A stretch of 32,209 nucleotides of DNA from a virus. Below are positions 1 through 31,396 of the stretch, piece after piece (position 1 is the first letter of the stretch; each line of letters starts with the position of its first letter). Location: IMG/VR virus record IMGVR_UViG_3300036885_000257, positions 1 through 32,209 of that record; one strand, given 5' to 3'. A program made the translations under genes and the position numbers. The notes under the pieces were generated by a model. The model had not been told where the DNA came from and searched no databases. It saw only the letters and a program-made list of their open reading frames with translations.

Positions 1-353
1 TCATACATTTTCTTGTCAGCATTATTCTGGTCTAATGTCCATTTCAAAGACAAAGTTCCAGCTTTTCTTGAATTCATGCAACCGACAACATGACTGTCTT
101 CCATCAAGTACTTGTATTCAGCAATGTCTTTGCCAAGTTTTCTAAGTGTTTCTGATGGGTTGGGCAAGTAACCAAGAACACGGTAGTAATTCCATGCTGT
201 TTCACGAATAGCAATTTCAGTTCCAAGCATTTGTTTCGTGTTCAAGTTTTCACTTAAAAGCTGGTCTGGCTCATAGAATGAAACTGAACCCCCAGACTGT
301 AAAGCCATGCTTGTTCTACGGGGCATCGGATAAAACTTGTTGTACCTACCCAT
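1..353 (-). CDS. Portal protein, Mu gp29-like (DUF935), N-terminal part
   Basis: The frame is open to the left edge, so only about 117 N-terminal residues are present. The stretch from residue 49 (RETAWNYYRVLGYLPNPSET) through LMEDSHVVGCMNSRKAGTLS to LKWTLD matches the start of DUF935 portal proteins, where one short helix region announces a variable residue run and then an H-x-x-x-x-x-x-x-RK segment followed by a tryptophan-containing strand. Portals form the dodecameric DNA entry channel at one capsid vertex and dock the terminase. The ATG is preceded by AAAGGAGT at good spacing. It lies 17 bases downstream of the large terminase on the same strand, the usual terminase-portal order. Family assignment is good; the rest of the protein is outside the window. 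Confidence 0.8.
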   Translation of the reverse strand, partial: MGRYNKFYPMPRRTSMALQSGGSVSFYEPDQLLSENLNTKQMLGTEIAIRETAWNYYRVLGYLPNPSETLRKLGKDIAEYKYLMEDSHVVGCMNSRKAGTLSLKWTLDQNNADKKMY

Positions 354-370
354 GATCAACTCCTTTATGT

Positions 371-1717
371 TTACCAAAAATCCTTTGTGACACGTTCTCT
401 TGCACGCCCTTTAGTAATCTGATAAAACGGTTCATCAAACGTTCTAAGTTCTTGTGGCATCTTGGCAACAGACTTTGAAATAACAGGACGAACGCCATTC
501 CAAGAAGCACTGCCCCCCATATATAACAAAGCCATTGACAGACTGTCAACCACATCATCATGTTCCCCCTGGGGAAATAAACTACACTGGTTAGTCAGTG
601 TCTTGTTCCATGGTGCTTTTCTTAAGATCACTTTGCCCTGTTCAATCAATGGTGTAATTGCTGTTGCTCTTGAAACTTTATCCCTGTCAACTTTAAAAGC
701 ATAAACTGGCATAGTCGACTGTTGAAACATCTGGATTAAAGACTGTCCAGACGCTTTATCTTCAATGACAACAACATCAGGCTTCCATTTGTTATATAGT
801 TCTTCTGTCTTAAGTAGTAACTTAGGAAAATCAAGTCGTTCCATGACCATATCTAAACAGTAGAAATGTGTGTTCGTCTTTTCCCATACAGTAAAAGCAC
901 TAAAGTCATTTGTTTCGCCCTCTTTAAAAGCGCTATCAATACTAATAATTTTCTGTTGAACAGTAAAAGGCTTGGGCAAAGTATCATCATCATAACAATA
1001 CTTCCACCATTCATCATTGAATATCTCAGACATACCAATATCTATAAAATCAGCATAGACTTCTTGTTGTCTAATTTGTGCAGGTGTATCAGCAGCCATT
1101 GCATCTATTTCTTCGACTGGTAATAGCGGGTTATCATAAGAACTTGCTTTTAATGAAATCCAATCAGGATCCCTATCAGGACTGCCTTCTAAGCCCTTTT
1201 TCCAGAACGTATAGAACAAGTGCTCTTTACCGTCTTTGCTTAACTTGCCTTTAGGGGTACCAACAAAAAACACTTTCGAAGCATAGTCAATGACCATGGG
1301 CCTAATTGAATTGAACCAAAGGTAAGGATCAGACTTGAAAATAATGCCTGCTTCATTAATTACTATTAAGTTGTAAGCAAAACCTTCGATGTTTTCTGGT
1401 TTTTCAGCACTTCGCATTATCAGTTCACCCTTGAACAGTTTCAACTGTTTCTTAGACTCTGACCAGTGCCAGTATTCATGTTTTACTTGCATTAACAAGG
1501 GCGTAAAATATTTCTGAAAATAAAGAACTAAGTTAATTTGCACGGTGTCTATCCATAAGACTTGTTGACCATTACATAGACACTCGATCACATACTGTAT
1601 AGCGCCAAATGTGCCACCGCATCTACGTCCTTTAGCAAAGACAATATATCTATGGGGATCTTCAAAGACTGTTTTTTGCATTGGGGTATAGGACAAATTT
1701 ATGTTAGCAGTGGGCAT
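371..1717 (-). CDS. Terminase large subunit (ATPase-nuclease)
   Basis: This is the packaging motor that translocates DNA into the prohead and cuts it. The ATPase half begins with a deviant Walker A at residues 29-36 (KGRRCGGT), then a Walker B-like strand LIVINEAG near residues 117-124 and a coupling motif VFFVGTPKG. The nuclease half shows the expected acidic clusters: IISIDSAFKEGETNDFSAFT near residue 258, VVVIEDKAS near 316, and GEHDDVVDSLSMAL near 384. At 448 residues it is on the short side for the family. The normal P-loop lysine position holds glycine, and the lysine is found earlier at residue 29, as in phage lambda gpA. It lies downstream of the small terminase gene, separated by 62 bases, and upstream of the portal. 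Confidence 0.93.
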   Translation of the reverse strand: MPTANINLSYTPMQKTVFEDPHRYIVFAKGRRCGGTFGAIQYVIECLCNGQQVLWIDTVQINLVLYFQKYFTPLLMQVKHEYWHWSESKKQLKLFKGELIMRSAEKPENIEGFAYNLIVINEAGIIFKSDPYLWFNSIRPMVIDYASKVFFVGTPKGKLSKDGKEHLFYTFWKKGLEGSPDRDPDWISLKASSYDNPLLPVEEIDAMAADTPAQIRQQEVYADFIDIGMSEIFNDEWWKYCYDDDTLPKPFTVQQKIISIDSAFKEGETNDFSAFTVWEKTNTHFYCLDMVMERLDFPKLLLKTEELYNKWKPDVVVIEDKASGQSLIQMFQQSTMPVYAFKVDRDKVSRATAITPLIEQGKVILRKAPWNKTLTNQCSLFPQGEHDDVVDSLSMALLYMGGSASWNGVRPVISKSVAKMPQELRTFDEPFYQITKGRARERVTKDFW

Positions 1718-2236: not shown

Positions 2237-2443
2237 ATGGCAAGAAACCCACACTTATACTCACAATTCGAACGTAATAAAAGCTTTGTTACTTATTCAG
2301 GCATGACAGCAACTGGTATTTGTGTTAGAACACCAGTCAAGAACATGGCATCAGAACCAGACGCATTAGAAAAACTACACGGACAGAGTGGTTCTGGCTT
2401 GGGACAAGACAAGACAGGACATGCTAAGAACACGAGGGACTGA
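2237..2443 (+). CDS. Small protein of unknown function, first gene of the head operon
   Basis: A 68-residue basic, polar protein with no family I recognise. The C-terminal third is rich in Gly, Ser, Lys and Asp and looks disordered; there is no signal peptide or membrane segment. The start is not strongly supported, because the bases before the ATG are an AT-rich run without a Shine-Dalgarno sequence, so it could be read from a near-leaderless transcript. The TGA stop shares a base with the ATG of the next gene (TGATG), which points to translational coupling and supports this being a real gene. Its position suggests a role in head assembly, but that is only context. Confidence 0.55.
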   Translation: MARNPHLYSQFERNKSFVTYSGMTATGICVRTPVKNMASEPDALEKLHGQSGSGLGQDKTGHAKNTRD

Positions 2444-2871
2444 TGCTACAACTTGAAATCGATGACCATCTTTTCGTTGCTGAACTTGAAGGCTTGAAGC
2501 ATAAGCTTGACTACATGCCCAGTAATGAAATAGCAAAACTGATCTTACAGGGCATACATCAGACATTTGACGATGCAGGGGCATCAGACGCTGTAATTGA
2601 AGACCATACAGTAGACTTTGAATGGGCAGAAAGACAAGAAGAAGGGGACGGACATCCCTTACTTATAGACTCAGGCGGACTTTACAATTCTTTCTTTTAC
2701 AACATTACTAAAGAAGACAATGACGTTATGATCGACTTTGAATCTGGTATGCCCTATGCTGGTTTTCTTAATAATGGTACTAAGTTCATGCCACCAAGAC
2801 CATTCTTTCTTGTACGTGAAACAACACTACAAGACATAGAAGAAATTTTAGCCAAGCACTTTGTATCATGA
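2443..2871 (+). CDS. Virion morphogenesis protein, Mu gpG / P2 gpS-like
   Basis: This 142-residue protein matches the phage virion morphogenesis family (Mu gpG, P2 gpS type), which acts at the head-tail interface or in tail completion. The C-terminal half carries the family pattern in order: HPLLIDSGGLYNSF at residues 87-100, a short beta pair, then MPYAGFLNNGTKFMPPRPFF, which corresponds to the YA-x-x-HQ-x-G and PARPF motifs. It starts on the stop codon of the preceding small gene and its own stop overlaps the next start by four bases (ATGA), so all three are translated as a coupled set. In Mu, G follows F; here it comes before the F-like gene. Confidence 0.8.
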   Translation: MLQLEIDDHLFVAELEGLKHKLDYMPSNEIAKLILQGIHQTFDDAGASDAVIEDHTVDFEWAERQEEGDGHPLLIDSGGLYNSFFYNITKEDNDVMIDFESGMPYAGFLNNGTKFMPPRPFFLVRETTLQDIEEILAKHFVS

Positions 2872-5753
2872 ACTATAAGCAATCAACTAAAGAATCAAGA
2901 AGTAAAGACTGGTTCAACTTTATTGAAGCAGCATCTAAGCGCCATGCCCCAGTTGACAAAGCATTGAAAGAACACTTCGACACAATAAAAGACCATGTAG
3001 TAAAAACTGGTTCATTAGCAGGTTTAGACAAGACACACATCAAAGCAGAACTGACAGCAAAACTAAACCCAGCACTTAGAACTGTAGCACATTCAGCAGG
3101 ACAAGAAAGACTTGACGACTTGTATTCTGAAGGACTACTAAAAGAAAAGCTTTTAATCTTGCCGTCAAAGGGCATAGAAGAACTAATAGGATCTCGACTT
3201 GCTCTGCTTTCTGACACTGTAGACACAACATGGGACAGGGTGCAAGCAGTATTAGATGCTAACCCAGAAAACTTAGCAGAAGAAATTGAAAGTTCACTGT
3301 TTGACCAAAGGGGTTTAATAAACACAACAGAAAGCACAGCACTAAACAATGCTGGGGACTTAGAAGGCGCAGAACAGTCAGACGTTTCTTTACTTAAGAT
3401 CTGGGTCAGTCAACAAGATGCTAATGTAAGGGACTCACATACACAAGCAGAAGACAAGTATCAAGACGGTATTCCGCTTGACCAAGACTTTGAAGTAGGA
3501 GACGACACAATGTCTGAACCTGGTGAAGGTTCATTACCAGAAGAAAACATAAATTGCAGATGTTCTATTTCTTACATTGAAGCAGCAAAAGACTTTGCTG
3601 AAAGCAAGTCTGACCCTATTCATGATGTTACATATAATGCAACAACTGACAGTCTTGGGCTTAGAAACTTAGCAATGCCCAGGCCCATAGTTCAAGACCC
3701 TAAGTCAAGTCTGACTGATATTGAAACTAAACGAAAACAAGTCCCAATGTCTGATGACAAGCATTCTTTAGACTCAGGTTCTGACCTAAAAGAACAGAAA
3801 GATCCCACAGGCATTACTTATGGTACATCAGTAGGGCCATATAAAGTAAAGGAACCAGTCGGTGGACTACAACGTGCTTTACCATCTGCATACAACGAAA
3901 GCAAAACAAACTTGGTTACACTAAACTTTGCAGAACATGCTGAATATCCAGTAAAATCAAGCGAATTGACAGCCGCTATGGGTGTTGGTATATCTGCTGA
4001 CAGAACACTTACTGACTTGCCCCCTAAAGACATTAAAGCAGATCTTGCTGGTGAAATGAAAATGAAACGTGACGAACCAATTTACACAGAAGGTCAAGAA
4101 GACGAAACAGGCATGTGGGTCACTGCTTTCAAGTCAGGCACACAAACAGATTCAGATGGTGTTGCACACAAATGGGAACCAGAAGACATAGACAACATAG
4201 CACAACAATACAACAAATCTGCAGATCCCAAGAACCCTGAACATCATATAGCCCCTGTAGTATTAGGGCATCCTAAAGACGATAGCCCTGCTTATGGCTG
4301 GATCGACAAAGCTAAATCTGCTGCTGGTAAATTATTCGTTCACCTCAGTCAACTACAACCTGAATTTGTTGACGCCCTTAAGAAAGGGCTATATAAGACA
4401 CGTTCAATTAGTCTATATCCAGACTTGAATATCAGACATCTTGGTTTTCTTGGTGGTGCAGTTCCTGCTGTCAAGGGACTTGGCCCATTCAAGTTTCAAG
4501 ATGAAAAGCCCTATAACACTTACGAATTCGGAGAAGACATGACTGACTTAAATGAACTAAAACAAGAAAATCATTTTTTCAAACGCTTATTCAATCTTTT
4601 CAAAATAGACGTAACTGAATTCAAAGAAGGAACAAGTAAACAACTACAGTCACAGGATGTCGATACGTTCAAGACAATCGGTGACAAATACCCGGAAGGA
4701 GCCAGTATGGCTGAGAAGAAAGATGTAATACCAGCTGACATGAATATAAGTCACCTGGATCACTTGAAATATGCTAAAGAATATGTCACAAAATTAGGTG
4801 ACCATCTTGAAGCAACAAAAGCAGAGAAAGGCGACAAGAAAACGAAGGATGACGGCAAAGAAACTATTGCACATGAATTTGCCAGACTTGCTAATTATCA
4901 CATGACAGCAGCACATGCAGGTCTTACTGCTGCACACTGTGGTCATATGGACCATGCTGAAGAAAACACAGACGACAAAACACTTGACCACAAAGAAAAG
5001 GAAGAAAAGACTAAAGCGCCTAATGAACACCTTCAGGGTGCTGCTGATGCATTAAAAGCTGCACAAGAAGCCATAGGAGCAAAAGACATGGCAAAAGTTC
5101 ATGAACATCTTTCTGGTGCACATGCAAACCTTACACTTGCAGCAACAAAGTCTGGTAATTTCGCTGAAGCTGATGTTGTTGGCACAGGCGGAACAAAAGA
5201 AATTCCTGTTGATGAAGTAAAAAAAGACAAAGATGAAAACACGAAGCTTTCTGAAGAAATAAGCTCTTTGAAAGACGAAATTTCAAAACTTAGAACAGAA
5301 AATGAAAAACTGAAAGGTGAACAAGAAACTAAACAAAAGGAAACTGCTATGGGCAATTTCAAAGAATTCTGTGAAAAGCTGGTATCTGAAGGCAGGATGA
5401 AACCTGTTGATGTAGACCAGAATGTTAAGACACTTGAAGCCCGACAGTTCATGTTCGATATGGAAACAAAGAACTTCGCTGAACACAAAGTTAAAGTTGA
5501 AGTTCACGACTATGTTGAAGACTTTAAGAATTACTTAAGTGCTATGCCAGTTGTTGTTGAACTTGATAAAGAACTTCTAAAGGGCACAGCTCCTGCAAAC
5601 CAGCCGGCCGCTGAATTTGTAGAAGTTGAAATTCAAAAGCTGATGAAGGCTGAACCCAAGTTGCAATACCATGAGGCTTTAAATAGAATTTTTCAAACAA
5701 ACCCTGATAAAGTGTCAAGTTATATGGAAGCGTCAATGACGCCTGTCAAGTAA
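2868..5753 (+). CDS. Fused head morphogenesis (Mu F-like), protease (Mu I-like) and scaffold protein
   Basis: One continuous 961-residue frame. Residues about 100-240 look like the Mu F / SPP1 gp7 minor head family: IWVSQQDANVRDSH at 178-191 and the closing NCRC at 229-232. Residues about 410-550 resemble the Mu gpI prohead protease: VVLGHP with His468, the PAYGWIDKA strand, and YKTRSIS with Ser513 and Ser515 as candidate nucleophiles. The rest is scaffold-like: a His-rich helix (about 668-698), Lys/Glu-rich linkers, a coiled coil (EEISSLKDEISKLRTENEKL, about 795-815) and a helical C-terminus. In Mu, F and I are separate genes. No stop or frameshift interrupts the frame. Self-cleavage between domains would separate them; the catalytic residues are my inference. 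Confidence 0.8.
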   Translation: MNYKQSTKESRSKDWFNFIEAASKRHAPVDKALKEHFDTIKDHVVKTGSLAGLDKTHIKAELTAKLNPALRTVAHSAGQERLDDLYSEGLLKEKLLILPSKGIEELIGSRLALLSDTVDTTWDRVQAVLDANPENLAEEIESSLFDQRGLINTTESTALNNAGDLEGAEQSDVSLLKIWVSQQDANVRDSHTQAEDKYQDGIPLDQDFEVGDDTMSEPGEGSLPEENINCRCSISYIEAAKDFAESKSDPIHDVTYNATTDSLGLRNLAMPRPIVQDPKSSLTDIETKRKQVPMSDDKHSLDSGSDLKEQKDPTGITYGTSVGPYKVKEPVGGLQRALPSAYNESKTNLVTLNFAEHAEYPVKSSELTAAMGVGISADRTLTDLPPKDIKADLAGEMKMKRDEPIYTEGQEDETGMWVTAFKSGTQTDSDGVAHKWEPEDIDNIAQQYNKSADPKNPEHHIAPVVLGHPKDDSPAYGWIDKAKSAAGKLFVHLSQLQPEFVDALKKGLYKTRSISLYPDLNIRHLGFLGGAVPAVKGLGPFKFQDEKPYNTYEFGEDMTDLNELKQENHFFKRLFNLFKIDVTEFKEGTSKQLQSQDVDTFKTIGDKYPEGASMAEKKDVIPADMNISHLDHLKYAKEYVTKLGDHLEATKAEKGDKKTKDDGKETIAHEFARLANYHMTAAHAGLTAAHCGHMDHAEENTDDKTLDHKEKEEKTKAPNEHLQGAADALKAAQEAIGAKDMAKVHEHLSGAHANLTLAATKSGNFAEADVVGTGGTKEIPVDEVKKDKDENTKLSEEISSLKDEISKLRTENEKLKGEQETKQKETAMGNFKEFCEKLVSEGRMKPVDVDQNVKTLEARQFMFDMETKNFAEHKVKVEVHDYVEDFKNYLSAMPVVVELDKELLKGTAPANQPAAEFVEVEIQKLMKAEPKLQYHEALNRIFQTNPDKVSSYMEASMTPVK
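4707..5753 (+). CDS. Possible internally started scaffold protein (Mu gpZ-like)
   Basis: An in-frame ATG at codon 614 of the fused protein is preceded by GGAAGGAG with a five-base spacer, better than the binding sites of many genes here. Starting there gives a 348-residue acidic, helical protein without the protease domain, containing the His-rich helix, the coiled coil and the C-terminal helices. Phage Mu is known to make scaffold Z from an internal start inside protease gene I in this way. The binding site also encodes Pro-Glu-Gly-Ala, so chance cannot be excluded. Confidence 0.55.
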   Translation: MAEKKDVIPADMNISHLDHLKYAKEYVTKLGDHLEATKAEKGDKKTKDDGKETIAHEFARLANYHMTAAHAGLTAAHCGHMDHAEENTDDKTLDHKEKEEKTKAPNEHLQGAADALKAAQEAIGAKDMAKVHEHLSGAHANLTLAATKSGNFAEADVVGTGGTKEIPVDEVKKDKDENTKLSEEISSLKDEISKLRTENEKLKGEQETKQKETAMGNFKEFCEKLVSEGRMKPVDVDQNVKTLEARQFMFDMETKNFAEHKVKVEVHDYVEDFKNYLSAMPVVVELDKELLKGTAPANQPAAEFVEVEIQKLMKAEPKLQYHEALNRIFQTNPDKVSSYMEASMTPVK

Positions 5754-5789: not shown

Positions 5790-6302
5790 ATGGCTTTTCA
5801 ATCACGTTATGAAGCTACCAGTTACTTGTCAACGAATGACTTGTCTGGTACAAATTATCCAGGACCTATTTTCATGAAACTGGATACCAGCACAAACGCA
5901 AATTTTCCACAGGTAGAACCATGCACAGCAAGCGTCAATCCTGAAGGTGTTCTTGAAAACGCTCCTGGTGCACAGATGCCAGCTGCTATTTCTTATACTG
6001 GTATCACTAAGATCGTTGTGAACGGTGTTTATACTGCTGGTCAGTTGCTGATGTCAAGCGGTTCTGGTGTTGCAACAGCAGCAAGTGGAACTGGGCAGTA
6101 TGCAAGGGGCGTTCAGTTGGAGAATTCAATAGCAGCAGGCGATATTGTTGCAATGCGTTTTGTTGACAATATGCTTGGTGTGTCTGGTATTTCTGGTTAT
6201 TCTGGTATTTCAGGTGTAAATGGAACTTCTGGATATTCAGGAACTTCTGGATATTCAGGAACTTCTGGATATTCAGGAACTTCTGGATATTCAGGAACAT
6301 AA
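5790..6302 (+). CDS. Capsid decoration protein (DUF2190-like) with a Gly-X-Ser tail
   Basis: Residues about 45-128 fit the DUF2190 head-decoration pattern: a short beta-rich domain with ITKIVVNGVYTAGQLLMSSG, then GQYARGVQLENSIAAGDIVA. Such proteins sit on the outside of the capsid, commonly as trimers, and stabilise it. From residue 132 to the stop the chain is only Gly-X-Ser/Asn triplets, ending in identical GTSGYS units. The tail is coded by an exact 18-base tandem repeat. The gene lies between the protease/scaffold and the major capsid gene, where Mu-like and other phages place decoration proteins, with AAGGAG before the ATG and a hairpin terminator after it. The surface location of the tail is inferred. 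Confidence 0.72.
   Translation: MAFQSRYEATSYLSTNDLSGTNYPGPIFMKLDTSTNANFPQVEPCTASVNPEGVLENAPGAQMPAAISYTGITKIVVNGVYTAGQLLMSSGSGVATAASGTGQYARGVQLENSIAAGDIVAMRFVDNMLGVSGISGYSGISGVNGTSGYSGTSGYSGTSGYSGTSGYSGT
6222..6293 (+). repeat. Exact 18-bp tandem repeat, four copies
   Basis: The unit GGAACTTCTGGATATTCA (encoding GTSGYS) occurs four times without a mismatch at 6222, 6240, 6258 and 6276, followed by a truncated GGAACA just before the stop. Identity at silent positions indicates recent expansion or homogenisation. Confidence 0.95.
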
Positions 6303-6359: not shown

Positions 6360-7388
6360 ATGTCTTTTCCTGCTATGACAAGTATTCTGGTTCGTGGAGC
6401 ACTCCAGAATGTAAGCATACTGTATCGCAATGCAAGTTACATTGCTGACAGTATTTTCCCGCTCATCAACGGTCTAAATTATCAGACCAAGATCACGAAA
6501 TACGATAAGCATCCCTGGTTCGCACTTGGCGAAGACCTTTATCGTGCAGAAAACACAACTGCAAAGCGTATTGACATGACAGTCCAGACACAGAATTTAG
6601 ATCCCAGAGAAATTGCTGCTGCTGGCGTTGTGTCAGATGAATTGTTCTTTGCTTCGAACCAACCTGGCAATCTGCCAGTTCAGCCGATTTCAGACACGAT
6701 TCTTATGATCTCTGACAAGATCGATCGTTTCAGAGAAAAGCTTGTTGCTGAAACCATCTATGGTGCAAGTGACAAGTATGGCGCAATCACTTGGGCTGAT
6801 GGTGCATCTGGTGGAACAGCCCCATCTGGTGGAACTGGAAAATGGGCTGCAGCAGACACGACAAACACAATCATCTTTGACATTGAAACAGCAAAGGCAG
6901 CAATCCTTAGCAAGACAGGTATCCTGCCCAATGTCTTAATGCTTGATTACACAACATTTCAGAAAATCAAAGCAAATGCAGTTGCTTTGGGTGGTGTGTT
7001 TGACAGGATCAAGTATACACAGACTGGCATCATGACTGAACAGCTCTTAGCATCTCTGCTTGGACTTGATGAAGTCATCATTGGTAAGGCTGTTTATACT
7101 GCAGACAAAGAAACGAAGGGCAACACGGTCACGACAATGAAGTACATTTGGGATCCGAATGCTTCTGGTCATGCTTTCTTGTACTATCGTCCTGCAGCTG
7201 CTGGTCTTAAACAGGTTTCGCCTGGTTATCAGTACCGTGTTGCTTACGATGGACAAACATGGAGAAGGATGATGACGTATCGTGAAGAGTGGTTGCATCA
7301 TAGTGTTTATGAAGTTGCAGAATGGGTTGACATTGCACCAGTGTCTACTGATGTTGGGTACCTCTGGAAACAGACGTATACAGCTTAA
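6360..7388 (+). CDS. Major capsid protein
   Basis: A 342-residue protein in the Mu gpT position, between decoration and gp36 genes. The sequence has the features of an HK97-fold capsid protein of the group that needs no large N-terminal prosequence: an N-terminal helix region (residues 1-35), an extended KYDKHPWFALGEDLYRAENT segment resembling an E-loop, a long acidic spine-helix region DTILMISDKIDRFREKLVAE, and a beta-rich A-domain with ILPNVLMLDYTTFQKIKAN and the late RVAYDGQTWRRMMTYREEW. It would form the capsid shell. The ATG is preceded by AAGGAG. Terminators stand on both sides of the gene. Family is judged from pattern and position rather than from a specific motif. Confidence 0.85.
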   Translation: MSFPAMTSILVRGALQNVSILYRNASYIADSIFPLINGLNYQTKITKYDKHPWFALGEDLYRAENTTAKRIDMTVQTQNLDPREIAAAGVVSDELFFASNQPGNLPVQPISDTILMISDKIDRFREKLVAETIYGASDKYGAITWADGASGGTAPSGGTGKWAAADTTNTIIFDIETAKAAILSKTGILPNVLMLDYTTFQKIKANAVALGGVFDRIKYTQTGIMTEQLLASLLGLDEVIIGKAVYTADKETKGNTVTTMKYIWDPNASGHAFLYYRPAAAGLKQVSPGYQYRVAYDGQTWRRMMTYREEWLHHSVYEVAEWVDIAPVSTDVGYLWKQTYTA

Positions 7389-17481: not shown

Positions 17482-18861
17482 ATGTACACGAACAACGGTT
17501 ATCAAATCCCAGATATTGGCGAAGATCCTTGGCATGAAATCAATACGACATTAGAAGACATGACTGATGTATTGCCACCTGCAGGGACCAAATACGTTAA
17601 CAACGAGCATATCCACAACCATCTCGACGGCATTACATCGGGACCCCAAATAGTTATTAATGGGACCCAAGTCAATGTGCCCAGCATACCTACGAATTCA
17701 ATCGTCACAACTGACGGTTCAGGTAATCTAACTGGAATTTCTGGCAGCAGTGTTTCAGGTATTTCAGGTAAATCTGGTTATTCAGGTGTTGCCGGTGCAA
17801 CTGGAACATCTGGTTATTCAGGTCATTCTGGTTATTCAGGCGTAGGTTCACAGGGAACCTCTGGCTATTCAGGCGTTGCTGGCGGAAATGGAACATCTGG
17901 TTATTCAGGAAAATCTGGTTATTCAGGTACAGGAAGTGCTGTTGTAGGATCTGGCTATGTGCCAGTAAGTAACGGTGCAACATATGTAGCAAGTGACATT
18001 ACTGATGTTGCAGGTGCAATTACAATTCAAAGTACAACAACAAATGGTGGTGACATTACTGTGTTAGCAGGACAAGACGGAACCATTATGCTTGCAAGTA
18101 CTTGGTATGCTGGTGGCAATGTAAGTCTATTAGCAGGAATATCGAACTTGTCTGTTGTATTAGACTCTGCTAATTCAGGTGGCAGTCAAAATACAATGAC
18201 ATTGTCAGCAGTTGGTAATAGTAATTCAATTAAAGTTCAAGCATCAGGCACTGATTCGTATGTAAGACTTGCAAGTGATACAGTGAACATCAGACTTGCT
18301 GACAGCATTGGCATCATAGCTGCAAATGACACTTACATAACATTAGACGGTACAAGTGACAAAGTGTCAGTACTTGCTGATAATTTTAGTGTAGAATCAA
18401 GCAATATTGACATAAAAAGTGGCACAATAAATAACATGACAATGAGTGCTACTGCAACAACACTTTCAAATGGTGCTGTATCAGCAAACTTGACAGCAAA
18501 TTCTATTACTTTGTTAGCAACTGGAAACACAAATGAAATTTTAATTTCAACTGCTGGTGGAACTGGATCACTTTTATTACTTAATGCAGGTTCGGGTGGT
18601 GGCAACAGAATGTCACTTCAAGCAGGTAATTACGAAGTCTATATTGACAGCACTGAAATTCAACTTAGTTCAGGTTCGTCTTATTATTATAAAATGAGTA
18701 ATTCAGGCATGGAAATACGGTCAAACACAATTAGTGCTACTGTAAATTCAATATACACCATTAACACAAGCAGATTTTCTCTTCCTGGGCTACCAACTTC
18801 GTCAAGTACTTTAGATGCTGGTATGCTTTGGAATGACACAGGAACAATAAAAATAAAATGA
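17482..18861 (+). CDS. Tail fibre protein with Gly-X-Ser stalk
   Basis: A 459-residue fibre in three parts. Residues 1-80 form the attachment end, with NNEHIHNHLDGITSG, a His-rich pattern common at the start of phage fibres. Residues about 84-155 are a Gly-X-Ser tract (SGISGKSGYSGVAGATGTSG and following). Residues 160-420 are a long run of short beta strands, Asn/Thr/Ser-rich, of the kind that builds trimeric beta-helices (VRLASDTVNIRLADS, LTANSITLLATGN). The end, FSLPGLPTSSSTLDAGMLWN followed by DTGTIKIK, is a widely found C-terminal fibre ending. The stop overlaps the glycosyltransferase start by four bases. Receptor specificity cannot be read. Confidence 0.8.
   Translation: MYTNNGYQIPDIGEDPWHEINTTLEDMTDVLPPAGTKYVNNEHIHNHLDGITSGPQIVINGTQVNVPSIPTNSIVTTDGSGNLTGISGSSVSGISGKSGYSGVAGATGTSGYSGHSGYSGVGSQGTSGYSGVAGGNGTSGYSGKSGYSGTGSAVVGSGYVPVSNGATYVASDITDVAGAITIQSTTTNGGDITVLAGQDGTIMLASTWYAGGNVSLLAGISNLSVVLDSANSGGSQNTMTLSAVGNSNSIKVQASGTDSYVRLASDTVNIRLADSIGIIAANDTYITLDGTSDKVSVLADNFSVESSNIDIKSGTINNMTMSATATTLSNGAVSANLTANSITLLATGNTNEILISTAGGTGSLLLLNAGSGGGNRMSLQAGNYEVYIDSTEIQLSSGSSYYYKMSNSGMEIRSNTISATVNSIYTINTSRFSLPGLPTSSSTLDAGMLWNDTGTIKIK
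17731..17940 (+). repeat. Gly-X-Ser repeat tract of the first fibre
   Basis: About 70 codons of Gly-X-Ser/Asn/Thr triplets including six GYSG motifs, with some Gly-Ala-Thr and Gly-Gly-Asn variants. Silent codon choices differ between units, so this tract is older or more constrained than the decoration-gene repeat. Confidence 0.85.
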
Positions 18862-19517
18862 ACACAGTAAAAATATGTTGTCCTGTATATGATCAGATGA
18901 CTTGGGATGAGTCTATGTCTAAGTCGTCAATCGAAGCATTGAAAATAGACAAGAATCGCACCTTTGATTTTTCAACATCTATTTGTCAGTCAACATATAT
19001 TGCTGAAAACAGAAACATGCTGATTAAAGAATCAGCTGAAAATCAAGCAATCAAGCAGAAACTAAATCCAAAATTTACTCACTGGCTGTTTATAGACCAT
19101 GACGTTGCTTTTAGTTCATGGGACATTGAAAAGCTTTTAGCAGCAGACAAGGGCATTATTTCTGGTTGTTATCGTCCTAAAGACAAACCAGAACGTTTTG
19201 TAGCAGGATGGTGCAATGACGAAGGCAAAATCATGGACTATGTGCCTGCTTTAGACGTTGGTATTCTTGAAGTTGATTGGACAGGTGCTGGTTTTCTATT
19301 ATGCAAACGTGAAGCACTTGAAGCAATGGAATACCCATGGTATTGGTGTTCTGTTCTTAAATGTGGCAACAGGGCCCTGACGGTGGGTGAAGATGTCTTT
19401 TTCTGTTTGAATGCAAGAAGAAACTTAATAACTGTCTATCTTGACACAAATACAATCTTAAATCATGAGGGCAACAGATATCATGCGAATGTACAGAATC
19501 GCTTTATCAAAGCCTGA
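18858..19517 (+). CDS. GT-A fold glycosyltransferase
   Basis: A 219-residue protein with the GT-A pattern. WLFIDHDVAFS holds the metal-binding DxD at Asp80-His81-Asp82, IISGCYRPKD follows, then DWTGAGFLLCKREALEAMEY as the acceptor region, and GEDVFFCLNARR with NHEG near the end. Such enzymes transfer a sugar from a nucleotide donor. It is translated with the preceding fibre (ATGA overlap) and stands before the giant fibre, so a virion protein is a likely target, although modification of host glycans is possible. There is no membrane segment, so it acts in the host cytoplasm. Donor and acceptor are unknown. Confidence 0.8.
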   Translation: MNTVKICCPVYDQMTWDESMSKSSIEALKIDKNRTFDFSTSICQSTYIAENRNMLIKESAENQAIKQKLNPKFTHWLFIDHDVAFSSWDIEKLLAADKGIISGCYRPKDKPERFVAGWCNDEGKIMDYVPALDVGILEVDWTGAGFLLCKREALEAMEYPWYWCSVLKCGNRALTVGEDVFFCLNARRNLITVYLDTNTILNHEGNRYHANVQNRFIKA

Positions 19518-19920
19518 ACAGGTAGCGACAATCAATCAGAGACTTGCTGATGGAAGAGCAATCAGAGTCAACACACGTCTTAGAAACATTGAACTTGAAA
19601 TTATTTACACATGCTTGAATGAATTTGCTAAACATGTTCAGAAATGTGCTTCATATCTACAAGTTATCAAGCACATGAATGCTGTTCAAAAGATCGCTGA
19701 TACAATTCAATTCATTAATTTTTCAAAAAGCGATTTTGAGAATCTAATTGCTGGCTTTGAAATGACAAAGGGCAACAGACCAGATAGTTGGACAACAGCA
19801 ATTAATTTCTTTGAACAGATGGAAGGTCCTGAAGAAATTGAAATAGAAGATACAGTGCAAAAGCTAAAAGACGAAATAGACAGAATGGACAAACAAAATG
19901 TCGCTTACAAACCCAATTAA
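19483..19920 (+). CDS. Helical protein of unknown function upstream of the giant fibre
   Basis: About 145 residues, not recognised. It is mostly helical (NIELEIIYTCLNEFAKHVQK, AVQKIADTIQFINFSK), ending in a strongly acidic and then mixed-charge tail (EGPEEIEIEDT). The frame is open from ATG 19465, but that codon has no ribosome site; ATG 19483 follows GAGGG at 11-12 bases and is preferred, and ATG 19489 is possible. The reading frame overlaps the glycosyltransferase by 35 bases at its start and the giant fibre by 23 bases at its end. A fibre-assembly chaperone would fit the size, the helices and the position, but nothing in the sequence proves it. Confidence 0.6.
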   Translation: MRMYRIALSKPEQVATINQRLADGRAIRVNTRLRNIELEIIYTCLNEFAKHVQKCASYLQVIKHMNAVQKIADTIQFINFSKSDFENLIAGFEMTKGNRPDSWTTAINFFEQMEGPEEIEIEDTVQKLKDEIDRMDKQNVAYKPN

Positions 19921-22900
19921 ATATACTTTTTTTGGTCAAATAGTCCCTAAGGACAAGTTGCCAATTATTGACATTCAAACTGATGGCATGGCTTTTGGTA
20001 CTGTTGAATTAGACTTGCCAATAACTACTGTTTCGACTTTAACTGTTTCTTGTTTTCATTTGACAAAACCGACATCAACAGAAGACAGATGGTCCAGATG
20101 CTTACCTGAATTACAAGCACTATATACACCAATTGCTTTTTCATATGAACAACTGGCAACTGACTATTGGCTAATTCATTGGCAATTCAATCCGCAAGTA
20201 ATCGGTGTCAACGAACAGCACAACGACCTTTATTGGTCTATTGAATTCTTTGTTAATGAAGCAAACAATGCAACAATTCCACAGTCAAGTCCTAAAATTA
20301 TCATTCATACAATAGACGACATTGGCTATACAAGTTCAAGTTCTGGTTATTCTGGGGTTTCAATAGCAAAAGGTGATAGCGGATATTCAGGTCAATCTGG
20401 GTATTCTGGACTAAATGGCATGGCGTCATTTTCAGGATATTCAGGAACAAGTGGGTATTCAGGTCAATCAGGGTATAGCGGAATTTCAGGAACATTAGGG
20501 CATTCTGGATATTCAGGCGATTCTGGAATTTCAGGTATTGATGGTCAATCAGGTCGATCTGGTTATTCTGGAATTTCAGGCATTGATGGTCAATCAGGTT
20601 ATTCGGGTATTGATGGACGTTCTGGTTATTCTGGAATTTCAGGGTATTCAGGTCAATCTGGATATTCTGGAATTTCTGGTTATTCAGGAGCAGGTCAATC
20701 AGGTTATTCAGGAGCAGGTCAATCAGGTTATTCAGGAAATGATGGACAATCTGGATATTCAGGTTTTTCTGGCAAATCAGGGTTCAGTGGTAAATCTGGA
20801 TATTCAGGTCAATCAGGTTATTCAGGTTTTTCAGGCACTAATGGACAAGCAACATGGAATGACACAGCTGACACTTGGTTACGTTCAACATTTCCTAATA
20901 CAAATTATGGAACACAAACAAGTTTTTTTATTGAAGACCCATATATAACAGGATTATTGAAATTTGCAACACCATCTGTTGATGTAACTAATGCTTATCT
21001 TAGTTTATATCGCCTGTCGACATATACAAGTCCAGTGACAATATCTATTTATCGTTGTTTGCAAAACTGGAATGAGTCTGGTGGAACAGGCGCCACATGG
21101 AATAAATATGATGGAACAAATACATGGAACACTGCTGGTGCTTTAGGTTCAGGTACAGATTATGATCCCACACTTTGTGGTTCAATTACTACGACAGCAA
21201 CACCACAATTTTCATGCTATTTGAATGCTTATGGTGTGTCAATTCTACACCAAATGTTCACAGGAGCAATTTCTAATTACGGTTTTGTCTTGTTTGTGTC
21301 AACTACAGGGGCACAAGTTGAACTTGCAACAAAAGAAAATGCTGATTCAAGCGAATGGCCCACACTATTAACAGGTATGCAAGGGTTTAGTGGATATTCA
21401 GGAACTTCAGGATATTCAGGAAAATCTGGATATTCAGGGTATTCAGGAATTTCAGGACAAGCAGGTGGTGCAGGACAATCTGGATATTCAGGAATGTCGG
21501 GTGAAGTTCCGGGTGGGTCAGGCTATTCGGGAATTTCTGGATATTCTGGTGGGTCAGGTTATTCAGGACAATCAGGATATTCTGGAATAAATGGAAATTC
21601 TGGATATTCTGGTAGCAATGGACTTAGTGGATATTCAGGAACAAATGGAATTTCTGGATATTCTGGTGTCGGACAATCAGGTTATTCTGGACTAAACGGT
21701 ATTGCAGCAGCATCAGGATATTCTGGAACTTCAGGTTATTCTGGTAAATCAGGTTATTCAGGAATTTCAGGACAAGCAGGTGGTGCAGGACAGTCTGGAT
21801 ATTCTGGTCAATCAGGAATTTCAGGTTTTTCAGGTCACGTTGATGGTGCAGGATATGCTTGGGCTACTTCTTTTGATAGTACAAGTATTACAGGAGTTTC
21901 AGGAGCATTTGTAAAAATGCCCATTTGGGTTGGAACAGTCTTAAATGGATTTACTTGTGATGGTACTACATTTACCTGCATAACCCCTGGGACATATCTG
22001 ATTAATGCTGATTTTCCTTGTTTTGCCGAAACACGAAATTCTCTAATTGCTGTTAAAGTTTTTCAAAATAATGCACAAGGGACAAATCTTAAAGTATCAG
22101 AAATCTATTCAATTGTTAATCAACAACAAGAAATTTCATTAACAGGTTTACTTGATTTAGCAGTAAATGACACAATAGATTTCAGAGTTCAAGCAAATTC
22201 TACTAATGATGTTACTTTCATGTATTCTATGATGACTTTTACTGGGATCGTAGGACAATCAGGTTATTCTGGTCAATCAGGAACTGGTGTTTCGGGTTAT
22301 TCTGGACAATCAGGTTATTCTGGATCAACAGGAACTACTGGTCAATCAGGTTATTCAGGACAATCGGGTTATTCAGGATCAATAGGTTCTGTTGGTCAAT
22401 CAGGATATTCTGGGGAATCTGGTTATTCTGGAATTTCTGGTATTGTTGGTTTTTCTGGATATTCAGGACAAAGTGGTTACTCAGGCAAATCAGGTTACAG
22501 TGGTATAAGTGGATATTCAGGAATTTCTGGTTTCTCAGGTTCTATTGCTGGTATGGGTTATATGTCAGCATATGTTGACGGAGGTGCACCAGTCACTGTT
22601 ACTATTGATGCCAGTCCACATGCATTGGGAAGTTTCTGGAGATCAGGATTGTTGAATGGTTTCACTAATAATGGAACTACAATTACTTGTACTCTTGCAG
22701 GTGTTTATAAAATAAATGCCACATTTAGTTATACATCAAGTGCAGCAAACACATATAGTTCAATTGCACTTATGCTGAATGGCACACAACAACCAGATAT
22801 GGTTGCAGGAGTGTCTACTGTTGCTGGAACTCCAGGACAATATAGAGTCAATGCTTCATTGACAGGTGTAGTATCATTAGCAGTAAATGATGCAATAACG

Positions 22901-25660
22901 TTTAGCATCTATAGCACTCCAACTCATACACTAACACTTTATGATTGTCAAATAGCAATTGCAGGTATTGTTGGATTTTCTGGATATTCAGGAATTTCTG
23001 GATATTCAGGTCAATCTGGATATAGTGGAAAATCTGGATACAGTGGAATAAGTGGTTATTCAGGTCAATCTGGGTATTCAGGAACAAGTGGGTATTCAGG
23101 TGCATTAGGAACTTCTGGATACAGTGGAATTAGTGGATATTCTGGTTTTTCAGGATATTCAGGAATAAATGGAACATCTGGGTATTCAGGTCAATCTGGA
23201 TATTCTGGGCAATCTGGTTATAGTGGTATTTCAGGAATTAATGGCCAGTCAGGTTATTCAGGTCAATCAGGCAACAGTGGAATTTCTGGCTATTCAGGAA
23301 CTTCAGGATATTCAGGAAAATCTGGATATTCAGGGTATTCAGGGTATTCAGGAATAGATGGTCAATCTGGATATTCAGGGCAATCAGGAAATAGCACATC
23401 AGGTTACAGTGGAATAAGTGGTTATTCAGGTCAATCAGGATATTCAGGAATAAATGGAACTTCAGGTTATTCTGGACAGTCTGGATATTCTGGAATTTCA
23501 GGTTATTCAGGTCAATCAGGTACAAGTGGATATTCAGGACAATCTGGATATTCAGGTCAATCAGGTTATAGCGGTGAATCTGGATATTCTGGAGAATCTG
23601 GAACTTCAGGTTATTCTGGACAGTCTGGATATTCTGGAATTTCAGGTTATTCAGGATATAGTGGTGAAAGTGGTTATTCTGGAGAATCAGGATATTCAGG
23701 CTATTCTGGAATAAGTGGATATTCAGGACAATCTGGTTATTCTGGTCAATCAGGTGAATCAGGAATTTCTGGGTATTCAGGAACTTCAGGATATTCAGGT
23801 GAATCAGGTTATTCAGGTGAATCAGGAATTTCTGGGTATTCAGGTTTTTCAGGTTATTCTGGAATTTCTGGGTATTCAGGAACATCAGGATACAGTGGAG
23901 AATCAGGTATTTCTGGTTATTCAGGAATTTCAGGTTATTCAGGTATTTCTGGTTATTCAGGTATTTCTGGTTATTCAGGAATTTCAGGTTATTCTGGTTA
24001 TTCAGGTGAATCAGGTATTTCTGGATATTCTGGAGAATCTGGTTATTCAGGTATTTCTGGATATTCTGGAGAATCTGGTTATTCAGGTATTTCTGGATAT
24101 TCTGGAGAATCTGGTTATTCAGGTATTTCTGGACAATCAGGATATTCAGGATACAGCGGAATTAGTGGTTATTCAGGTAATTCTGGATATTCTGGTGATT
24201 CTGGACAATCTGGATATTCAGGTCAATCTGGTTATAGTGGTGAAAGTGGTTATTCAGGAATTTCAGGCTATAGTGGAGAATCAGGTATTAGTGGATATTC
24301 AGGAATTTCAGGCTATTCAGGACAATCAGGTACAAGTGGATATTCAGGTCAATCTGGTTATTCAGGACTAAGTGGTTATTCTGGAGAATCTGGTTATTCT
24401 GGTCAATCAGGATATAGTGGAATTTCAGGATATTCTGGTATTAGTGGCACAAATGGAATTAATGGAGATTCAGGCTATAGTGGAACTTCTGGAATTTCTG
24501 GTTATTCAGGAAAATCAGGCTATAGTGGAACTGATGGAACAAATGGGAATTCTGGTTATTCTGGAATTTCAGGAATAAATGGAACTAATGGAGAATCTGG
24601 TTATTCAGGAAAATCAGGTTACAGTGGAATAAGTGGATATTCAGGAATTGATGGAACAAATGGAACGTCTGGATATTCTGGTATTTCAGGTTATTCAGGA
24701 ACAAATGGTCAATCAGGTTACTCTGGAATTTCTGGAACAAATGGTAATTCAGGTTATTCTGGAATTTCTGGAATAAACGGAACAAATGGATCTTCAGGAT
24801 ATTCAGGAATTTCTGGAACTAATGGAGCAAATGGAGAATCAGGATATTCAGGCGCATCAGGAATAGGAACATCAGGTTACTCTGGACAATCTGGTATTAA
24901 TGGAATTTCTGGGTATTCAGGTATTTCAGGAACAAATGGCACATCTGGATATTCTGGTATTTCAGGTTATTCTGGAACTAATGGATCTTCAGGTTATTCT
25001 GGAACTAATGGATCTTCAGGTTATTCTGGAATTTCAGGAACAAATGGAACGTCTGGATATTCAGGAACATCTGGATATTCTGGTAATTCAGGATATTCAG
25101 GAACATCTGGATATTCTGGTAATTCAGGATATTCAGGAACATCTGGATATTCAGGAACAAATGGAACGTCTGGATATTCAGGAACGTCTGGATATTCAGG
25201 AACATCTGGCAAATCAGGATATTCAGGAACAAATGGAACGTCTGGATATTCAGGAACTTCAGGATATTCAGGAACGTCTGGATATTCTGGTAAATCGGGA
25301 TATTCTGGTGTCGGTACAAGTGGTTACTCAGGAAGTTCAGCAACACGAGTAAACGGAACAGCAAGTTCAGCAACACCAACACCTGATGTTTCAACAACAG
25401 ATCTTTATTATCTATCAGCACTTGCAGAAACAGCAACGTTTGGTGCCCCTACTGGTAGTCCATCTGATGGACAAAAACTTGTAATACGAGTTTATGATAA
25501 TGGTGGTGCCAGAACCCTTGCATGGAATGCAATTTATAAAGCAATAGGAATAACTTTACCAATAATAACTGTTGTGGGGTCTTACACATATGTCGGTTGC
25601 ATTTATAATGATGCGACAGATACTTGGGCTTGTGTAGCAACAGCAACAGGAGCAGGTTAA
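19898..25660 (+). CDS. Giant tail fibre with Gly-X-Ser stalks, DNRLRE-like and C1q-like domains
   Basis: A 1,920-residue frame without interruption. Layout: 1-145 attachment domain, also found alone in the 26206 gene; 149-315 repeat tract 1; 316-492 DNRLRE/CBM96-like domain (ADTWLRSTFPNTNYGTQTSF, LLKFATP, SSEWPTLLTG); 493-645 tract 2; 646-785 jelly-roll domain resembling C1q/TNF (GTYLINADFPCF, ISLTGLLDLAVNDTIDFRVQ); 786-883 tract 3; 884-1025 a second, related jelly-roll (GVYKINATFSYT, LTGVVSLAVNDAITFSIY); 1026-1811 tract 4; 1812-1920 a C-terminal cap of common phage type (DGQKLVIRVYDNGGARTLAW). The tracts are Gly at every third position, mostly GYSGXS, and contain no proline. It is most likely a long trimeric fibre; a glycan-binding role comes from domain resemblance only. 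Confidence 0.85.
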   Translation: MSLTNPIKYTFFGQIVPKDKLPIIDIQTDGMAFGTVELDLPITTVSTLTVSCFHLTKPTSTEDRWSRCLPELQALYTPIAFSYEQLATDYWLIHWQFNPQVIGVNEQHNDLYWSIEFFVNEANNATIPQSSPKIIIHTIDDIGYTSSSSGYSGVSIAKGDSGYSGQSGYSGLNGMASFSGYSGTSGYSGQSGYSGISGTLGHSGYSGDSGISGIDGQSGRSGYSGISGIDGQSGYSGIDGRSGYSGISGYSGQSGYSGISGYSGAGQSGYSGAGQSGYSGNDGQSGYSGFSGKSGFSGKSGYSGQSGYSGFSGTNGQATWNDTADTWLRSTFPNTNYGTQTSFFIEDPYITGLLKFATPSVDVTNAYLSLYRLSTYTSPVTISIYRCLQNWNESGGTGATWNKYDGTNTWNTAGALGSGTDYDPTLCGSITTTATPQFSCYLNAYGVSILHQMFTGAISNYGFVLFVSTTGAQVELATKENADSSEWPTLLTGMQGFSGYSGTSGYSGKSGYSGYSGISGQAGGAGQSGYSGMSGEVPGGSGYSGISGYSGGSGYSGQSGYSGINGNSGYSGSNGLSGYSGTNGISGYSGVGQSGYSGLNGIAAASGYSGTSGYSGKSGYSGISGQAGGAGQSGYSGQSGISGFSGHVDGAGYAWATSFDSTSITGVSGAFVKMPIWVGTVLNGFTCDGTTFTCITPGTYLINADFPCFAETRNSLIAVKVFQNNAQGTNLKVSEIYSIVNQQQEISLTGLLDLAVNDTIDFRVQANSTNDVTFMYSMMTFTGIVGQSGYSGQSGTGVSGYSGQSGYSGSTGTTGQSGYSGQSGYSGSIGSVGQSGYSGESGYSGISGIVGFSGYSGQSGYSGKSGYSGISGYSGISGFSGSIAGMGYMSAYVDGGAPVTVTIDASPHALGSFWRSGLLNGFTNNGTTITCTLAGVYKINATFSYTSSAANTYSSIALMLNGTQQPDMVAGVSTVAGTPGQYRVNASLTGVVSLAVNDAITFSIYSTPTHTLTLYDCQIAIAGIVGFSGYSGISGYSGQSGYSGKSGYSGISGYSGQSGYSGTSGYSGALGTSGYSGISGYSGFSGYSGINGTSGYSGQSGYSGQSGYSGISGINGQSGYSGQSGNSGISGYSGTSGYSGKSGYSGYSGYSGIDGQSGYSGQSGNSTSGYSGISGYSGQSGYSGINGTSGYSGQSGYSGISGYSGQSGTSGYSGQSGYSGQSGYSGESGYSGESGTSGYSGQSGYSGISGYSGYSGESGYSGESGYSGYSGISGYSGQSGYSGQSGESGISGYSGTSGYSGESGYSGESGISGYSGFSGYSGISGYSGTSGYSGESGISGYSGISGYSGISGYSGISGYSGISGYSGYSGESGISGYSGESGYSGISGYSGESGYSGISGYSGESGYSGISGQSGYSGYSGISGYSGNSGYSGDSGQSGYSGQSGYSGESGYSGISGYSGESGISGYSGISGYSGQSGTSGYSGQSGYSGLSGYSGESGYSGQSGYSGISGYSGISGTNGINGDSGYSGTSGISGYSGKSGYSGTDGTNGNSGYSGISGINGTNGESGYSGKSGYSGISGYSGIDGTNGTSGYSGISGYSGTNGQSGYSGISGTNGNSGYSGISGINGTNGSSGYSGISGTNGANGESGYSGASGIGTSGYSGQSGINGISGYSGISGTNGTSGYSGISGYSGTNGSSGYSGTNGSSGYSGISGTNGTSGYSGTSGYSGNSGYSGTSGYSGNSGYSGTSGYSGTNGTSGYSGTSGYSGTSGKSGYSGTNGTSGYSGTSGYSGTSGYSGKSGYSGVGTSGYSGSSATRVNGTASSATPTPDVSTTDLYYLSALAETATFGAPTGSPSDGQKLVIRVYDNGGARTLAWNAIYKAIGITLPIITVVGSYTYVGCIYNDATDTWACVATATGAG
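20336..20842 (+). repeat. Giant fibre Gly-X-Ser tract 1
   Basis: About 167 codons between the attachment domain and the DNRLRE-like domain. GYSG alternates with GQSG, GISG, GIDG and GKSG. Two GAGQS units break the three-residue phase near 20690-20720, which would put kinks in a triple helix. Confidence 0.9.
21374..21834 (+). repeat. Giant fibre Gly-X-Ser tract 2
   Basis: About 153 codons. The block GISGQAGGAGQSGYSG occurs twice, near 21447 and 21759, so a longer unit has been duplicated within this tract. It also carries the only GEVPGG variant, near 21500. Confidence 0.9.
22252..22545 (+). repeat. Giant fibre Gly-X-Ser tract 3
   Basis: About 98 codons separating the two jelly-roll domains. 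GQSGYSG dominates, with interspersed GSTGTTG and GSIGSVG variants. This linker is flanked by related sequences (FTGIVGQ before, and IAGIVGF before tract 4), suggesting domain plus stalk were duplicated together. Confidence 0.9.
24014..24121 (+). repeat. Exact 36-bp tandem repeat, three copies
   Basis: A unit encoding GISGYSGESGYS is repeated at 24014, 24050 and 24086 with no mismatch, then runs into a partial fourth copy. Neighbouring units differ at silent sites, so this is a recent local expansion. Confidence 0.95.
25064..25153 (+). repeat. Exact 36-bp tandem repeat, two and a half copies
   Basis: A unit encoding GTSGYSGNSGYS is present at 25064 and 25100 without mismatch, followed by a half copy from 25136. 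It is another recent expansion near the 3' end of tract 4. Confidence 0.92.
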
Positions 25661-29672: not shown

Positions 29673-29786
29673 TTAGATTATGAGCAGCAACATAAGGATG
29701 ATCACAAACCCCAAGAACAAGTTGACAGTCCAAAACTGGTTGATCCGCCACTGCTTATTAAACCAACGACGTAGTCTTCTTGTCAC
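29673..29786 (-). CDS. 37-residue membrane protein
   Basis: Too short for routine ORF calling, but well supported. It starts at GTG 29786, overlapping the TGA of the glycosyltransferase gene (GTGA), with AAAGG six bases before. The product has an Arg-rich, Trp-rich N-terminus (MTRRLRRWFNKQWR) and one hydrophobic helix at residues 18-37 (FWTVNLFLGFVIILMLLLII), so it would sit in the inner membrane with its basic end in the cytoplasm. Such micropeptides can be holins, antiholins or small membrane effectors; which one is not visible. Confidence 0.62.
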   Translation of the reverse strand: MTRRLRRWFNKQWRINQFWTVNLFLGFVIILMLLLII

Positions 29787-31396
29787 AACAAACCTTTAAT
29801 TTTTTCAAAAACAACATCGGGTGATTCGAACACTATATCGTTTCTAATTCTACCTGGCCAGATCCCAAATTGGTCCTGTCTAAATAGCTTTTCGTCTTTA
29901 ACTATATTCAGGTTATATGGCAAACCAAATAACTTGGGATTTGATTCACCCCATAACACAACACCCTTTATTGATTCTGGCATACAGTTCACAAGATGTT
30001 GTAAGAAATTGTCAACGCTAATAAAAGTCCTACAATTGCTAATTCTTGTTTCTAATTCATTAAACGACTTGTCGAATAGAATCAGATCGACATCAAGTTG
30101 TTGTTCGCCATTCTTGCCAATTTGAACTAACTTATAACCCAATGGTTTTAAAAGCTTTATTAGTTCTGGCCACCAAGGGTAATTTTTAGCAGGTTGTGAC
30201 CAAGGGCTAATGATAATGTCTGAACCAGTACCCAGTTTTGCTTCTGTTTTTATTTCACCACCAGATATATTTAGAAACTTTTTATAAGCCCATGCAAGAC
30301 TTTTGTCCCATTTCTGTGTGTCCATGAAAAAGTAGATGTTGAACTTGTCGAGGTTGTCACCAAACATGTTATGGGCTTCTGCAATAGATCCAAGTCTAAT
30401 ATCTGGATAGTCTTTAAATATTTCTGGGTAACAGACAAAGAACATGTGTTTCTTGTTCTTGTGCTTTTCGAAATACTGTGGTAGCCAATACTTGAAAGCA
30501 TAATGGTCCCCGATCCCATTGTCTAAAACAACAATTTGGTAGTCATTAAACTTGACATCCCATTCTTTTAATTTGTCAGCAAATATTTTTTCATCATGGT
30601 TAAAGTCTTCGATCTTTGAATTAGTTCTAATGCCACCAACTGGGTTTCTAAAATGCCATGTTTTAGCAGCAGGATCAAGAATGACTTTATAGCCCTGCAT
30701 CTTGATGTCATATGTCAACAGGGTTTCTTCTCTGTGCCCAACAGTGCTTAAATCGAAACAGTATCGTGCTAAGTCTTTTCTATAAATAAATGAACAATGC
30801 AAGTGGTCTACTTCGTAAGCAGGTTTAGATGACAAGAACCACTGTGCATTAAGTCCTAAATAAATGTCTTCGATCTTATTTGACGCTAATGACGAAACAG
30901 CGAATTGACCTTGGGGTAATACTAAACCACCAACAGCACCAGTCTTGACATCAATGTTAGCAACAAGTTTTTCAAGACATGTTTCAACTGCAATAGTGTC
31001 ATCATCAAGACGCCAAATCCAATTGTTGACAGCTTGGGCACAGGATGAAATATGGTTTAGAACTTGACCACCTTTACGTCCAGGGTCCCATTTCCAACTG
31101 ATGCCCTGCAACATTAAATAATCAAGAATTGCTTTTAAAAGCGGTTCAAATGTTGGGTTTTTAAAAGTTTCATTATCGTCATAAATTAATAATTCAGTGG
31201 GCTTGTATGTCTGATTTGCAATAGACATCAGACAAGCAGGTAGGGTTGAAAATGTTCTACCCTTAGTCGAAACAACAGCTGAAATTTTTTCAGGCATTGC
31301 AACTAAACAACAAGTATTTGCAATTTCAGGGTGAATCTTTGCTTGAATACTATCTAGGTTGATAGTTGGTCCTGATGTAATTGTCCATTTTTTCAT
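29783..31396 (-). CDS. Two-domain glycosyltransferase (GT2-like plus GT9-like)
   Basis: A 537-residue enzyme. Residues about 35-265 are a GT-A family 2-type domain: ISAVVSTKGR at its start, LLIYDDNETF, IWRLDDDTI with the DxD at Asp131-Asp133, and GAVGGLVLP. Residues about 285-510 resemble GT9 (heptosyltransferase-like, GT-B): VVLDNGIGDHYAFKYWLP, IIISPWSQPA, YPWWPELIKLLKPLGYKLVQ, and FISVDNFLQHLVNC with Asp462 and His467, then GVVLWGESNP. Two transferases in one chain suggest a two-sugar addition. Residues 1-33 copy the HNH N-terminus and may be a leftover; the catalytic part could start at Met34. It overlaps its neighbours on both sides by four bases. Acceptor unknown; virion proteins or host surface glycans are both possible. 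Confidence 0.8.
   Translation of the reverse strand: MKKWTITSGPTINLDSIQAKIHPEIANTCCLVAMPEKISAVVSTKGRTFSTLPACLMSIANQTYKPTELLIYDDNETFKNPTFEPLLKAILDYLMLQGISWKWDPGRKGGQVLNHISSCAQAVNNWIWRLDDDTIAVETCLEKLVANIDVKTGAVGGLVLPQGQFAVSSLASNKIEDIYLGLNAQWFLSSKPAYEVDHLHCSFIYRKDLARYCFDLSTVGHREETLLTYDIKMQGYKVILDPAAKTWHFRNPVGGIRTNSKIEDFNHDEKIFADKLKEWDVKFNDYQIVVLDNGIGDHYAFKYWLPQYFEKHKNKKHMFFVCYPEIFKDYPDIRLGSIAEAHNMFGDNLDKFNIYFFMDTQKWDKSLAWAYKKFLNISGGEIKTEAKLGTGSDIIISPWSQPAKNYPWWPELIKLLKPLGYKLVQIGKNGEQQLDVDLILFDKSFNELETRISNCRTFISVDNFLQHLVNCMPESIKGVVLWGESNPKLFGLPYNLNIVKDEKLFRQDQFGIWPGRIRNDIVFESPDVVFEKIKGLL

Follow-up and report, generated by a model that had tools for sequence, protein, structure and literature searches.

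A viral gene joining a MuF minor head domain to a prohead protease and scaffold, and the probable relocation of that domain from the portal protein

The routes by which minor proteins enter the phage head are known in few cases. In SPP1, the portal protein gp6 targets gp7, a protein of the MuF type, into the procapsid interior, so that gp7 rides on the portal into the head, and of virions without gp7 only about 25% are infectious (PMC6316719). Fusions of MuF domains with enzymes and with portals have also been discussed (PMC5512222). In the Mu record (NC_000929), F (gp30) is a gene of its own, separated from I by G, while Z (p20) begins at an internal in-frame start within I; RcapMu is annotated like Mu for I and Z. 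The initial annotation of the locus described here took F, I and Z to be separate genes in Mu, which stands for F and falls for I and Z. Common to Mu and this locus are a MuF minor head protein, a prohead protease and a scaffold nested in the protease gene. Because Z of Mu is already nested in the frame of I, two things are new with respect to Mu, namely that MuF is joined to I/Z and that the G-like neck gene comes first instead of standing between F and I as G does in Mu.

The window, that is, the whole stretch of 32,209 nucleotides of an uncultured phage that was analysed (IMG/VR record IMGVR_UViG_3300036885_000257), contains at 2868-5753 (+) a frame of 961 codons without a stop, the ATG of which overlaps the stop codon of the neck gene as ATGA. 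The features of its head gene region are these:

3-377 (-): Mu-type portal gene, first 125 codons, the rest beyond the contig end (PF06074 at positions 3-38, E 2e-4)
371-1717 (-): terminase large subunit, oriented divergently to the fusion in the window and in relatives (PF17289, E 2e-19)
2443-2871 (+): neck/tail-completion (Mu G-like) gene (phrog_5/phrog_26, E 5e-5)
2868-5753 (+): whole fusion ORF, 961 amino acids, in the order MuF, linker, protease, scaffold
2868-3593 (+): MuF (Mu F/SPP1 gp7-like) minor head region, residues 1-242
3651-4094 (+): linker, residues about 262-409
4095-4535 (+): prohead protease domain, residues 410-556 (phrog_976, alignment and fold match)
4696-4709 (+): candidate internal start, AAGGAG at 4696-4701, a 5-nt gap and ATG at 4707, residue 614
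4707-5753 (+): putative scaffold region (Z-like), residues 614-961, with a coiled coil at about 783-825
5790-6302 (+): decoration/head-associated protein with GYSG repeats, downstream of the fusion (phrog_673, E 5e-10)
6360-7388 (+): major head protein (phrog_1005, E 4e-45)

GYSG repeats are found in the window not only at 5790-6302 but also at 17482-18861, and they recur in a 1920-residue protein at 19898-25660 (+), which consists mostly of GYSG/collagen-like repeats in many tandem arrays. Predicted glycosyltransferase-like proteins are encoded at 29783-31396 (-) and 18858-19517 (+), beside tail/fibre genes.

The long ORF is real, and its reading as F-, I- and Z-like regions in one frame, as the initial annotation proposed, is right. 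In profile searches, residues 151-242 matched phrog_2468 (MuF, head morphogenesis; E 2e-15) and residues 410-955 matched phrog_976 (head maturation protease; E 3e-52), so that the MuF and protease families expected of these segments were both recovered. When the protein was cut in pieces, each half of phrog_976 was matched, the C-terminal half of the profile spanning the scaffold part, and the C-terminal part of the scaffold is conserved with this family. Assignment of the latter region as a putative scaffold rests on its position, the coiled coil and the phrog_976 profile. PF04233 (Phage_Mu_F) scored 24.9 bits on the fusion, under the 29.6 cut-off. The portal-MuF protein of a relative, L146, itself lies above this cut-off, and its C-terminus is matched by residues 7-237 of the fusion with 35.5% identity (E about 1e-43 to 1e-45). 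Arg188, His191, Cys230, Arg231 and Cys232 of the MuF core motif are invariant in the MuF alignment. The structure model of the MuF region has a pLDDT of 86, and a PDB search with it gave nothing usable among solved structures.

The protease is a prohead protease of the Mu I/T4 gp21-like type, with a herpesvirus/T4 gp21 fold as judged from its structure model. The model of residues 402-601 matched T4 gp21 best (Z 8.4) and herpesvirus assemblins next (Z 5-7), and unrelated rows in the same fold comparison had Z of 5.1 or less; Foldseek E-values were weak for this model, the best being 0.004. A putative catalytic Ser/His set is kept in the protease, His468, Ser513 and His524 being invariant in the 39 sequences of the alignment. 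Mu I differs in belonging to phrog_328/PF10123, whereas the protease of the fusion is of the phrog_976 type, and a Pfam search found no match to PF10123 (Mu-like_Pro) in the fusion ORF. The whole ORF as a query gave no match in a single-protein scan of viral contigs. An alignment of eight diverse proteases was dropped as a search query, being too divergent.

The scaffold is probably also made alone from codon 614, as in Mu. The AAGGAG-5nt-ATG signal at this codon also precedes the major capsid and decoration genes of the window, and the Shine-Dalgarno match of the full-length start is no longer than 3 nt. Among 15 relatives, with the window counted, 11 have a Shine-Dalgarno match of at least 6 nt at the homologous place, whereas the synonymous-shuffle fractions add up to an expectation of about 3; the common ancestry of the relatives weakens this count. 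In the window alone, 18% of synonymous shuffles equal the codon-614 signal, which is unremarkable by itself. The residues that encode the signal vary from one relative to another (EGASM, QEGATM, KGDNM, QKEISM, QGVNM, KGAENM and KEAKTM). Between MuF and protease, no usable internal start is present at residues 240-420, which bears out the earlier claim that MuF is covalently tied to the protease. A start at residue 215, preceded by AGGAG, was rejected as a coding coincidence inside the conserved V-G-x-x-x-M motif of MuF. With a strong and recurrent start at codon 614 and none between MuF and protease, two products would be expected, namely a rarer MuF-protease-scaffold protein and a commoner scaffold.

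Scans of IMG/VR and GTDB genomes were used to collect relatives of the protease. About 180 of them have an intact start, some of these being duplicated and two being copies of the window. The number of residues before the protease domain has a median of 9 and exceeds 100 in only 13, and the nearest kin of the window are among the relatives with long N-termini. The closest partners of the window in the protease tree are L136 and L014 (97/82), followed by L137 (93/92), and a clade of 14 rows holds both the window and L146. In the relatives read in detail (L014, L136, L137, L138 and L146), terminase and portal genes lie on one strand and protease, decoration and capsid genes on the opposite strand. 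Conservation of the linker extends to L014 and L136 and, in part, to L015; in L014, its equivalent is divided over two genes with a collagen-like gene between them. DUF5661 precedes the protease in L136 (inside the linker), in L137 (with a histidine phosphatase) and in L020, and L139, L140 and L141 have a short conserved N-terminal piece at this place. The fusion occurs in one genome only among the genomes examined, and no other ORF among the fetched relatives (192 protease ORFs and 71 MuF ORFs) joins MuF to this protease.

Other domains were observed at the N-terminus in this family. A histidine phosphatase (PF00300) is fused before the protease-scaffold in L014:6226-8739 (+) and L137:4711-7545 (+), where it is possibly a head-packaged enzyme. 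The more distant L025, L072, L156 and L159 have a ChaB domain (PF06150) before the same protease family.

The MuF region has its closest relatives on portal proteins. A scan for MuF alone yielded 41 loci, mostly with MuF at the C-terminus of portal proteins of 700-800 residues. In L146, the last third of a Mu-type portal of 784 residues (PF06074 + PF04233) is MuF. The MuF tree, in which L146 is represented by the contig fragment L241, places the window as sister to the MuF domain of this contig (100/98), nested among portal-MuF fusions. The portal-MuF gene of L146 is followed by the neck gene closest to that of the window (38% identity, E 1.5e-20), and in L014, L139, L140, L142 and L146 the neck homologue is found past the portal gene and on the same strand as it. 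On the contigs searched from L014 (40.7 kb), L142, L018, L136 and L138, neither Pfam nor a custom profile for MuF gave a MuF match, and the closest relatives by protease, L136, L014 and L137, are without MuF on the contigs searched. The portals of L014, L139, L140, L142, L143, L145 and L020, whose C-termini were read, all lack MuF, so that a MuF-less portal is usual in the clade. These relationships suggest that MuF most likely moved from the portal to the protease-scaffold, which would then have taken over from the portal the delivery of MuF into the procapsid. Most simply, the neck gene and MuF would have left the portal side together for the protease side, where MuF became joined to the linker.

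Two further MuF proteins have other architectures. The 1561-aa product of L119:4353-9035 (+) combines a MuF domain with a C-terminal ADP-ribosyltransferase (PF03496), an architecture of a MuF-borne effector, and L275:2221-5535 (+) encodes a portal-MuF protein with an intein that carries a LAGLIDADG endonuclease.

The fusion is thus likely to be a procapsid-building polyprotein in which MuF has been relocated from the C-terminus of the portal, where a clade-mate has it, to the N-terminal end of a protease-scaffold of the Mu I/Z type. Ribosomes that end the neck gene would re-initiate at the overlapping ATG to give few full-length MuF-protease-scaffold chains, and the strong internal ribosome site at codon 614 would give many copies of the scaffold alone, the homologue of Z. 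Free scaffold and full-length chains might then co-assemble, by which MuF and the protease would be taken into the procapsid. The protease would cut itself, the scaffold and probably the linker, and MuF would stay behind in the head interior or at the portal vertex; MuF proteins such as SPP1 gp7 help start infection there. Since SPP1 gp6 targets gp7 to the procapsid interior, a switch of carrier from portal to protease-scaffold would keep the destination.

The same frame might instead encode an obligate polyprotein that would bring the minor head protein, the protease and the scaffold into the prohead at 1:1:1, with cleavage alone parting them. The single open frame and the lack of a good internal start from MuF to protease agree with this, but the AAGGAG-ATG signal recurs at the scaffold boundary, an internal scaffold start is annotated likewise in Mu I/Z and RcapMu, and scaffold is generally required in large excess over protease, which together make such a product improbable. 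A set ratio that includes the scaffold, as the initial annotation envisaged, conflicts with the recurrence of the codon-614 signal in diverged relatives; a fixed ratio would concern MuF and protease at most, and one to the scaffold is unlikely.

Whether the joint between MuF and protease is genuine also has to be weighed, as it lies on a single contig, is absent from all fetched relatives and is accompanied by a neck gene that is likewise on an unusual strand; these points count in favour of a chimeric contig, in which the MuF gene of another phage was joined to a protease-scaffold gene in assembly or sequencing. However, the reading frame continues through the joint, the fusion gene overlaps the one before it by 4 bp, L014 and L136 share the conserved linker, and the best relatives of the MuF and neck genes are both in one clade member, L146. 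G+C (0.40), GC3 and codon use are even over MuF, linker, protease and scaffold, so that nothing in the composition suggests an assembly joint, and an artefact is very improbable. Somewhat less remote, though still unlikely, is that this MuF is an extra copy derived from a duplicated portal tail, which would bring a second MuF set or a host-takeover factor into the head, the portal keeping its own. The window portal is visible to codon 125 only, its C-terminus lying beyond the contig end, so that a second MuF on it, and hence a duplication, is possible, and other cargo-like domains occupy the same site in relatives; against this, portals without MuF are usual in the clade (seven members other than L146).

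Relocation of MuF to the protease-scaffold, the preferred reading, raises a broader idea. The swapped N-terminal domains in relatives suggest a general cargo use of this site, and the N-terminus of the protease-scaffold precursor may be a general loading dock, on which unrelated domains would travel into the procapsid with the scaffold and be set free by the protease, head cargo being exchanged by swapping this segment; this is put forward tentatively, with somewhat less than an even chance of being right. The locus amounts to a natural experiment, in which the same domain seems to have changed its carrier from portal to protease-scaffold within one phage clade and relatives carry enzymes at the same N-terminal place. 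If the delivery step is real, the site would be a swappable and directly testable cargo site, some fused head proteins of environmental phages would be explained as cargo arrangements, and the fusion would be a naturally occurring case of a new route for loading proteins into a virus shell.

Among known systems, lambda C/Nu3 resembles the fusion in having a protease with a nested in-frame scaffold start but differs in having no MuF region and a protease of another type. The combination of MuF and protease, which the initial annotation regarded as unusual, is less so than supposed, since 'capsid maturation protease and MuF-like fusion' is annotated in hundreds of actinophage records, albeit with a protease that has no profile similarity to the present one. 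The fusions of Mycobacterium cluster B1, Streptomyces TurkishDelight and Microbacterium cluster EG are alike in having MuF on the N-terminal side and the protease C-terminally, and, as in the window, one gene of this kind lies between portal and major capsid. The fusion of cluster EG has been described, as have portal-MuF and protease-scaffold-capsid fusions (PMC7302621). An RNA-ligase/2H-phosphoesterase-like stretch lies between MuF and protease in two of the three actinophage fusions examined (L004:3015-6458 and L005:3180-5975). Comparison of their C-terminal part with the protease of the window gave no profile similarity (hhalign probability 0.3%, E 0.22), and no PHROG is shared with the window fusion outside the MuF part; the two proteases are thus apparently unrelated. 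The portal-MuF fusions (phrog_2662; Microbacterium clusters EA/EB; L146, L258-L298) are the source of the closest MuF domains, but in them MuF is the C-terminus of the portal, whereas in the window it forms the N-terminal part of the protease-scaffold. In SPP1, gp7 is a protein of its own whose targeting depends on binding to the portal; in the window, targeting would be covalent, via the protease-scaffold. No joining of MuF with this protease type was seen among the matches listed for 50,697 phages, and no fused protein of MuF, prohead protease and scaffold in the part of the literature covered. Fusions of this broad type are already on record from other phages, and what the present locus adds to them is MuF joined to a phrog_976-type protease-scaffold.
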